64,000 nt of DNA. Origin: a bacterium (GTDB lineage: Bacteria; Myxococcota_A; UBA9160; UBA4427). A model generated the notes under the pieces. It did no database searches and was not told the DNA's origin. It saw only the letters and a list, made by a program, of their open reading frames with translations. Positions 50,094 through 54,004 of this stretch are shown piece by piece (position 1 is the first letter of the stretch; the number at the start of each line of letters is the position of its first letter). The stretch covers positions 1 to 64,000 of the forward strand of contig JANSYR010000019.1 of assembly GCA_024742285.1 (NCBI GenBank), written 5' to 3'. A program made the translations under genes and the position numbers.

Positions 50094-51848
50094 ATGGCGA
50101 GAGCGACTGCACGCGAGCGGGACGGGACGAGTGGACGTCGGGCTCCCGGAACCGGGTGGATCGTGGCCGTGTGCTGCGTGTTGCTGGTGGGCTCCGCGCG
50201 GACGACGGGCGCGACGGTAGGTGCGACGGAGGACGCAGACGGTTGGCGACCCGCGGCCTGGGGCGCGCGACCGGCCGAGCCGCTGATCGCCGTCGCGGCC
50301 TCCGCACGTTCGGGGCTCGCGTTCGCTTCCGGAGGCGTGGTTCGCTGGTGGCAGGCGGAGGCCGGCGGGGGGAGCGAAGCGGCGGCGCTCCCGGACGTGC
50401 GGGACATCGCATTCGGACCGCGGGATGCGCTCTGGATCGCGACCGGCGAGGGACTCTTCCGCTGGGAAGGAGGGGCCCGGCCCGAACGTCGGTCGCTCCG
50501 GGGAGATGCCGGCGTCGCGAACGTCCATCGCGTGATCGGGGACGAGGCCGGCCTGCTCGTCGCGACGGAAGCCGGCGCCTACTGGTCGACGCGCGGACGG
50601 ATCTTCCAGCCGCTCGTCGCTTCCCAAGTCGGCGGCGGCGTCGAGCACGCCGCATTCCTCGCGCTCGGGGCCGCACCCGGATTCGCCGAGCGTCGCGTGC
50701 TCTGGCTGCTGGGACCGGGCGGTCTCGAGCGGGTCGAGGGAATCGCAAGCGATGCCGGGCTCCGGATCCTTCGGCGCGATCGGCTGCCGCTCCCGCGACC
50801 GCGCAGCGAGGCGCGAGCGGTCGATCTCGTCGCGGCGGCCTCGGAGGCGTCGGCGGTGTCGGAGGCCTCGGGCGCGTCGATCGTCGTGCTCTATCCCGAC
50901 GGGCTCGCCGTCGCGGACGCTTCTGCGCGGGCCCCGATCTGGCGGCGCTATCGACCGGTGCTCGCCCCGGGTGCCGTGGCGCGGCGCCTCGACTGGAACG
51001 ACGAGGGGCTGATGCTCGCGACGGATCGCGGTCTCTACCGGGGCGATGCGCCGGGGGGGCGCTTCCAGCGGCTCGGCCCCGAGCCCGGCGCGCAGCCGTG
51101 CGTCGATCTCGATGTCTCGTCCGCAGAAGGGCCGGGAATCGTGCTCTGTCGCTCCGGTGTCCACGTCCGGTCGACCGATCGGGTGCGGATCGCGGCAGCC
51201 GTCATCGCGCCCGTTCCCGGGACGCGTCCTCCGGGATCGCGCGAAGACGCTTCGCCGATTCCCGAGGATCCGCCGGTCGCCGCGTTGCGGGCGCGGGCGC
51301 TCGTTCGTGCCGGGCTCGACCCCGAACGGGATCGGGCGCTGCGATCGGGACTCGCGCGACGCGGCTGGTGGCCCGAGCTCGGACTGCAGTTCGGCGCCGA
51401 TTTCGATCGCGACGACCGGCGCTTCGCCGACCAGGCCTTCGTGTCCGGCGACTATCGACGGCTCTCCGACCGGACCCGAGACCGCACCACGCGTTTCGAG
51501 GCGCTGCTCCAGCTCGACTGGCGTCTCGGGGAGGTCGCCTATCCCGACGACAGCGTCGATCTCTCCCGGGAGCTCCGGCAGGTCCTCGCCTTGCGGGACG
51601 ACGTGAGCGACGAGATCCATCAGCTCTACTTCGAACGCGCCCGGATCCGCGCGCGCCTCGCTGCGGGCGGTCCCTTCGAGCCGGGGGAGCCCGCGAAGCT
51701 CCGCCTCCGGGCGCGGGAGCTCGCGGCCGGACTCGATGCGTGGACCGGTGGCTGGCTCTCCGAGTGGCAGCGCGACCAGGCGTCCCTGCCGCCCGACCCT
51801 TCATCCCCGAACGAAGGTCCCGAGAACCGAGGTCTTGCTCTCGAATGA
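50094..51848 (+). CDS. Secreted beta-propeller-like protein of unknown function
   Basis: The 584-residue protein has an N-terminal hydrophobic segment (WIVAVCCVLLVGSARTTGAT), either signal or anchor. Residues 60-370 contain repeats of the type IAFGPRDALWIATGEGLFRW, DEAGLLVATEAGAYWSTRG and WNDEGLMLATDRGLYRGDAP, as in two-component-regulator/WD-like propellers. The C-terminal third (WPELGLQFGADFDRDDR, then helices RELRQVLALRDDVSDEIHQL) is different and could be a barrel fragment or helical domain. The family is not recognised. The next gene overlaps its stop (ATGA). The start has no good ribosome-binding site. Confidence 0.7.
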   Translation: MARATARERDGTSGRRAPGTGWIVAVCCVLLVGSARTTGATVGATEDADGWRPAAWGARPAEPLIAVAASARSGLAFASGGVVRWWQAEAGGGSEAAALPDVRDIAFGPRDALWIATGEGLFRWEGGARPERRSLRGDAGVANVHRVIGDEAGLLVATEAGAYWSTRGRIFQPLVASQVGGGVEHAAFLALGAAPGFAERRVLWLLGPGGLERVEGIASDAGLRILRRDRLPLPRPRSEARAVDLVAAASEASAVSEASGASIVVLYPDGLAVADASARAPIWRRYRPVLAPGAVARRLDWNDEGLMLATDRGLYRGDAPGGRFQRLGPEPGAQPCVDLDVSSAEGPGIVLCRSGVHVRSTDRVRIAAAVIAPVPGTRPPGSREDASPIPEDPPVAALRARALVRAGLDPERDRALRSGLARRGWWPELGLQFGADFDRDDRRFADQAFVSGDYRRLSDRTRDRTTRFEALLQLDWRLGEVAYPDDSVDLSRELRQVLALRDDVSDEIHQLYFERARIRARLAAGGPFEPGEPAKLRLRARELAAGLDAWTGGWLSEWQRDQASLPPDPSSPNEGPENRGLALE

Positions 51849-52543: not shown

Positions 52544-52687
52544 TCTCCAGGCGCGCGATCGGAGCCGTTCTCCGGTCGCGCGCCGAAACGAATGGCGCAG
52601 TCGCCATCGGCGAGCCCTCCTCGATCCGCGTCCGGATCCGGGGGCGGGCCGGGACGCGACGAACCAGCGCACCGCGAAGGGACGAAC

Positions 52688-53029
52688 ATGGCCAAGAAGG
52701 TCGACTGGTACTACTTCCGCAAGGGTTGAACGAGCTGCACCAAAGCGTCCAAGTTTCTGGACGCCGAGAAGGTCGTGGTGAAGGAGGAGATCCCGGCGAG
52801 CCGCAAGCTCGGCGAGAGCGACGCGAAGGCGATCGCCAAGGAATCCTCGAAGGTCTACGTCGCGAAGGGCAAGAAGCTCGACGTCTTCGACATGAAGTCG
52901 GAGAAGGTCGGGGACGTCGCGGCGAAGATGCTGGGCCCCACCGGCAATCTGCGGGCGCCGACCCTGCGCGTCGGGAAGACGACGATCGTCGGCTTCAACG
53001 AGGAGACGTTCGCCGACGTGCTCACGTAG
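52688..53029 (+). CDS. ArsC-like thioredoxin-fold selenoprotein (in-frame TGA = Sec14)
   Basis: The reading frame ATG(52688)-TAG(53029) is broken only by TGA at 52727-52729. Read as Sec it gives a 113-residue protein: VDWYYFRKG, then U14-T-S-C17, then KASKFLDAE. This is a strand, a UxxC redox site and a helix, as in ArsC/Spx-type thioredoxin-fold proteins. The C-terminus matches that fold, with a cis-Pro-like RAPTLRVGKTTIVGFNEETF. The start has an aaggga site. A SECIS-like hairpin follows the TGA at the right distance (52745-52764). Without Sec the product would be a 13-residue peptide, and a downstream GTG start would lose the active site. Substrate unknown; no Sec-insertion genes are in the window. 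Confidence 0.9.
52727..52764 (+). promoter_or_regulatory. Bacterial SECIS-like element after the Sec TGA
   Basis: The TGA at 52727-52729 is followed 15 nt later by a perfect 6-bp stem (gcgtcc/ggacgc, 52745-52750 and 52759-52764), extendable by one A-U pair to 7 bp with a 6-nt loop agtttc. The loop has a G in its second position, and the loop begins 22-23 nt after the TGA. Both fit the known loose consensus for bacterial SelB-recognised hairpins. Confidence 0.75.
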
Positions 53030-53401: not shown

Positions 53402-54004
53402 ATGCTGTCGGGCTTCAACACGAATTTTCGCTACCGGGGCGTGCTCTTCCACGTCCAGACCGAAGATTCCGGCCTGGGGAACCCCCACGTGATCACCCAC
53501 CTCTTCCACGGTGGGAACATCATGGCCAGCGAAAAGCGCGACTACTCCGAGTTCCTCGGAGAGAAGGAGGGCGACGCCCTCGAAGACGCGATCCGCAAGC
53601 TGATGGAGGGGCTCCACAAGTCGATGCTCAAGCAGCTCTCCCGCGGCGAGCACGACGCGGCGATCGAGCAGCGCATGGGGCCCGACGTCTTCCAGATCGA
53701 CGCGACGGACGCGACCGCCGAGCCGCCCACCCTTACGGAAGAAGAACGCCCGCCGGCCCCTCCGCAGGAGCGGGCGCAGGTCCCGCCGGTCGCCGAACCG
53801 ACTTTCGTCGAGCCGCACGCGCTCACCGAGCCGCAGGCGCCCATCGATCCGCCACCGGCGGCCGCGTCCGAACAGACCGATGGTGGCTCCCGCCTCTCGC
53901 GCGTCTTCGGTGACCGCGTGGTCAGTGAGAAGCCCCTCGACGAGGTCGTGCTGGACTACCTCGTCGAGAACGCGCGCAAGCGGAAGCGGACGACGAAGTC
54001 GTAG
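53402..54004 (+). CDS. Conserved-looking protein upstream of ftsEX
   Basis: The 200-residue protein begins LSGFNTNFRYRGVLFHVQTE DSGLGNPHVI-like: an N-terminal beta domain of about 60 residues (then HLFHGGNIMASEKRDY). I believe this pattern recurs in delta-proteobacterial genomes but cannot name the function. It is followed by a helix (LEDAIRKLMEGLHKSMLKQL), a Pro/Glu-rich disordered stretch (110-165) and a basic C-terminus. It has no signal peptide. It lies 125 bp before ftsE on the same strand, so it may be co-expressed with the division genes. Confidence 0.65.
   Translation: MLSGFNTNFRYRGVLFHVQTEDSGLGNPHVITHLFHGGNIMASEKRDYSEFLGEKEGDALEDAIRKLMEGLHKSMLKQLSRGEHDAAIEQRMGPDVFQIDATDATAEPPTLTEEERPPAPPQERAQVPPVAEPTFVEPHALTEPQAPIDPPPAAASEQTDGGSRLSRVFGDRVVSEKPLDEVVLDYLVENARKRKRTTKS

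Follow-up and report, generated by a model that had tools for sequence, protein, structure and literature searches.

Locus and reading frame

The window, that is, the whole stretch of 64,000 nucleotides analysed in this study, harbors on its forward strand at 52688-53029 a gene of 113 residues with a single in-frame TGA, which is codon 14 (52727-52729). The frame translates as MAKKVDWYYFRKG-U-TSCTKASKFLDAEK...GPTGNLRAPTLRVGKTTIVGFNEETFADVLT and is closed by a TAG stop at 53027-53029. The coordinates, the frame of 114 codons, its one TGA, the KG-U-TSC motif and the TAG all agree with what the initial annotation had given. The features of the locus are as follows:

52676-52682, forward strand: GAAGGGA, a purine-rich stretch shortly 5' of the ATG, possible ribosome-binding site as judged from the sequence
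52688-53029, forward strand: ArsC family (seleno)protein gene (NF041106), 113 residues with predicted Sec14, ATG start, TAG stop
52727-52729, forward strand: TGA, very probably selenocysteine, Sec14 of the UTSC motif; TGA in 90/90 distinct homologues; aligned to Spx Cys10
52736-52738, forward strand: TGC codon of Cys17, the putative resolving Cys of UxxC; invariant in 90 homologues
52745-52764, forward strand: bacterial SECIS-like hairpin with a 7-bp stem, a 6-nt loop AGUUUC and a conserved G at 52753

The standard list of ORFs contains at this place only an 84-aa ORF that begins at GTG 52775 and from which the active site is absent, which bears out the earlier expectation that conventional gene callers would miss the gene or start it downstream. 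TGA also serves as an ordinary stop in the same genome, for example at the end of a 584-aa ORF at 50094-51848.

Family membership

With the TGA position entered as Cys for the profile programs, the product was found to match the NCBIfam model NF041106, "ArsC family (seleno)protein", with a score of 116.2 bits (cut-off 85) over the full profile (1-107 of 107), and it displays the UxxC active site as U14-T-S-C17. Compared with NF041106 (ArsC_rel_Se_1), the UxxC motif, the single Sec and the size are all alike, and no difference was found.

The family has been listed in two reviews as "Arsenate reductase-like protein" with UxxC and one Sec (PMC9312934; PMC13188914), the second of which names NF041106. 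Further reports of ArsC-type selenoproteins concern Desulfotalea and Desulfuromonas (PMC1794560) and the Global Ocean Sampling survey, where the selenoproteins called Arsenate reductase 2 (cd03032, UxxC) resemble the window protein at the level compared, namely as ArsC/Spx-type selenoproteins with UxxC (PMC2398784). Since the family, its motif and its assignment as a UxxC selenoprotein are previously published and curated, the window gene is to be regarded as an ordinary member.

Structure and likeness to Spx and ArsC

The AlphaFold model of the product (pLDDT 91.4) exhibits thioredoxin-type strands and helices, helix 1 opening with the UxxC, and its best structural matches were Spx and ArsC-related proteins, including 6gho (E 7e-5) as well as 3ihq and 3gkx (Z about 9, rmsd 2.7 over 87-89 residues). 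In the alignment with Spx, Sec14 is paired with Cys10 and Cys17 with Cys13, and the CxxC redox pair that Spx/MgsR proteins carry at the start of helix 1 is thus present with Sec replacing the first Cys. This correspondence with the Cys10-Cys13 switch, together with the occurrence of Spx structures among the top fold and sequence matches, speaks for a selenocysteine form of the RNA polymerase-binding, redox-sensing regulator Spx/MgsR, and the thioredoxin-like fold, the CxxC aligned to UxxC and a VGxNE near the C-terminus are indeed held in common with Spx/MgsR (TIGR01617; B. subtilis Spx). However, the TIGR01617 profile reached 22.2 bits against a cut-off of 75.05, the window protein is shorter, with the Spx C-terminal extension missing, Sec stands instead of Cys, and Spx Arg92 is Ala90 here, and we therefore regard such a regulator as rather improbable.

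The E. coli-type ArsC employs Cys12 with Arg60, Arg94 and Arg107. A genuine arsenate reductase with Sec in place of Cys would fit the place of the protein in the ArsC-like superfamily, the ArsC within the family name and the weak match to the Pfam ArsC profile (17.4 bits, under the cut-off of 24), and the fold and the nucleophile position are those of the glutaredoxin-dependent arsenate reductase ArsC (PF03960, TIGR00014). Nevertheless, in an alignment whose ArsC residues were verified with the help of solved ArsC structures, Ala59 and Ala90 occupy the places of Arg60 and Arg94, and Arg107 lies in an insertion absent from the window protein, whose site is of the CxxC type with a resolving Cys, whereas that of ArsC is of the CxxS type. 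The 25 families that occur most often in 72 neighbouring ORFs likewise include no arsenic genes, and an arsenate reductase is considered very unlikely. The earlier wording "ArsC-like" can accordingly be retained as the name of a fold and family, but the catalytic arginines of ArsC are absent.

The gene neighbourhood was also consulted for hints of function. The order of an upstream gene, a PEP-CTERM protein, the window gene, a downstream gene, FtsE, FtsX, M23 and S41 was observed only within the genus, and a Pfam scan of the 72 neighbouring ORFs, taken from diverse loci, revealed no recurrent partner, the top family being ECH_1 with 3/72. The neighbourhood was rejected as a clue because the order is confined to the genus and no function recurs among the diverse neighbours. 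At 53402-54004 the window encodes a conserved protein of 200 aa that matches no Pfam family and is syntenic with FtsEX across the genus.

Conservation of the TGA codon

In a comparison set of 148 genomes, ranging from the same genus up to the same phylum, NF041106 was over its cut-off in 58, with exactly one in-frame TGA in each match. In genome_contigs, 428 relatives were detected, and the best 80 of them were read; all of these 80 harbor the TGA, and by their record titles, mostly of metagenome bins, they span Myxococcota, Gammaproteobacteria, Acidobacteria, Gemmatimonadetes, Entotheonella, Eisenbacteria, Phycisphaerae and others. Phage records yielded no homologue.

When the best 80 of the 428 and the copies from the related genomes were pooled, 90 distinct DNA sequences were obtained, and codon 14 was TGA in every one of them; neither TAA, TAG nor Cys was observed at this codon among these 90 best-matching relatives. 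On the 5' side of the TGA, W7, Y9 and R11 are invariant across the 90 homologues, while synonymous codons vary at Y9, R11 and G13, and the start ATG occupies an equivalent position in 84% of the homologues. On this sequence comparison, the codons preceding the TGA are under protein selection.

The initial annotation had proposed to look for homologues with Cys at position 14. None was found within the family among the best-matching relatives examined here, and the Cys counterparts are more distant, namely Spx/MgsR/ArsC proteins, in which the residue opposite Sec14 is the first Cys of the active site; the classic Cys/TGA pairing thus rests on these distant Spx/ArsC relatives.

Several further loci were noticed among the related genomes. 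One (L159, G068:C121:17239-17526) is a divergent UTSC homologue with an in-frame TGA and a GPTGSYRAP motif, which at 79 bits lies under the NF041106 cut-off of 85, and two others are apparently broken copies, one frameshifted (L158, G032:C167) and one partial (L157, G079:C50). A second and different Spx/ArsC-like gene (L153, G122:C8:83129-83443, minus strand), for which no NCBIfam model was at cut-off, displays TGA at the position of the first active-site Cys (YWKST-U-TTC) and a GCACG-CGGGTT-CGTGC hairpin 3' of the TGA; its host belongs to another Myxococcota family and has a strong tRNA-Sec.

The SECIS-like hairpin

The hairpin GCGTCCA-AGTTTC-TGGACGC begins 15 nt after the TGA, and G is the second base of its loop, so that it shows the layout of a bacterial SECIS, in which a hairpin with an apical-loop G lies a short distance 3' of the UGA. 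No Rfam SECIS family was over threshold, and the single-sequence fold of the hairpin is unremarkable (z -0.91). Its codons are nonetheless strongly biased: Ser21 is TCC in 81/81 sequences against a background of 19% in the same genes, Arg19 is CGA or AGA in 67/73 (CGA background 10%), and Phe23 is TTT in 57% against 17%. The six pairs of the inner stem are intact in 69 of the 90 homologues, whereas synonymous shuffles preserve them in 10 on average and in no more than 18, and the 90 fold with a mean MFE of -14.3 kcal/mol against -11.1 +/- 0.4 kcal/mol for shuffled sequences, eight standard deviations below, although these sequences are related and the figures are thus not independent trials. 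The comparison supports the view that the codons of the hairpin are constrained beyond protein coding and selectively maintained, and the hairpin that had been reported to follow the TGA is therefore present at 52745-52764 and kept at synonymous sites in the homologues.

The rival reading of a pseudogene or sequencing error, with an ordinary ArsC-like gene interrupted by a nonsense mutation or with GTG 52775 as the true start, agrees with the mechanical ORF list and its lone downstream 84-aa ORF, but it is already refuted by the TGA that all 90 homologues share and by the invariant codons that flank it, and also runs against the equivalent start ATG and the hairpin kept at synonymous sites, which leave it next to no probability.

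Selenocysteine machinery

The genome of the window (6.55 Mb, 95% complete) contains a tRNA-Sec, detected by Infernal at 67.8 bits, over the gathering score, and by ARAGORN in agreement, with a UCA anticodon. A full-length SelB ORF of 655 aa, a SelA of 522.9 bits and a SelD fused with an N-terminal pyridine nucleotide-disulfide oxidoreductase domain were also found, and all four components sought on the advice of the initial annotation (selA, selB, selC and selD) are thus present. In the SelD locus (L018, G000:C16:123873-124790), SelD and the N-terminal domain (TIGR03169) share one 760-aa ORF.

Across the comparison set, SelA was detected in 57 of the 58 genomes with the family versus 53 of the 90 without it (Fisher p 5.6e-9, phylogeny not corrected for). 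The lone family-positive genome without a SelA match (G063) is 85% complete and has tRNA-Sec.

The match to NF041106, the universal TGA, the maintained hairpin, the full Sec machinery and the co-occurrence with SelA together uphold the original proposal, and the window gene is very probably a selenoprotein of NF041106.

Proposed mechanism and implications

The hairpin at 52745-52764 would position SelB and tRNA-Sec, which would decode the TGA at codon 14 as selenocysteine. The product would be a stand-alone thioredoxin-fold protein of the Spx/ArsC superfamily with Sec-Thr-Ser-Cys at the N-terminus of helix 1, in which the Sec14 selenolate may attack an oxidised substrate, such as a disulfide, and the mixed selenenyl-sulfide may then be resolved by Cys17. 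Sequence evidence gives good support to both the recoding and the fold, and the UxxC motif suggests that the protein is probably a thiol/selenol oxidoreductase. Given that the product lacks the arginines of ArsC, arsenate appears an unlikely substrate.

Whereas Cys homologues abound in most selenoprotein families of the thiol-oxidoreductase kind, this family presents no Cys form in 90 distinct sequences of many phyla, which raises the possibility of a reaction beyond the reach of a Cys form; a family that is obligately selenium-dependent, possibly a selenium-dependent redox sensor derived from Spx, can be put forward as a speculative suggestion.

This study indicates that the TGA is very probably a codon and not a stop. 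The selenoprotein family is widespread, though uncharacterised, and the window gene is one among hundreds of orthologues. As the family seemingly never occurs with Cys in the examined set of best-matching relatives, its chemistry is a fair experimental question.
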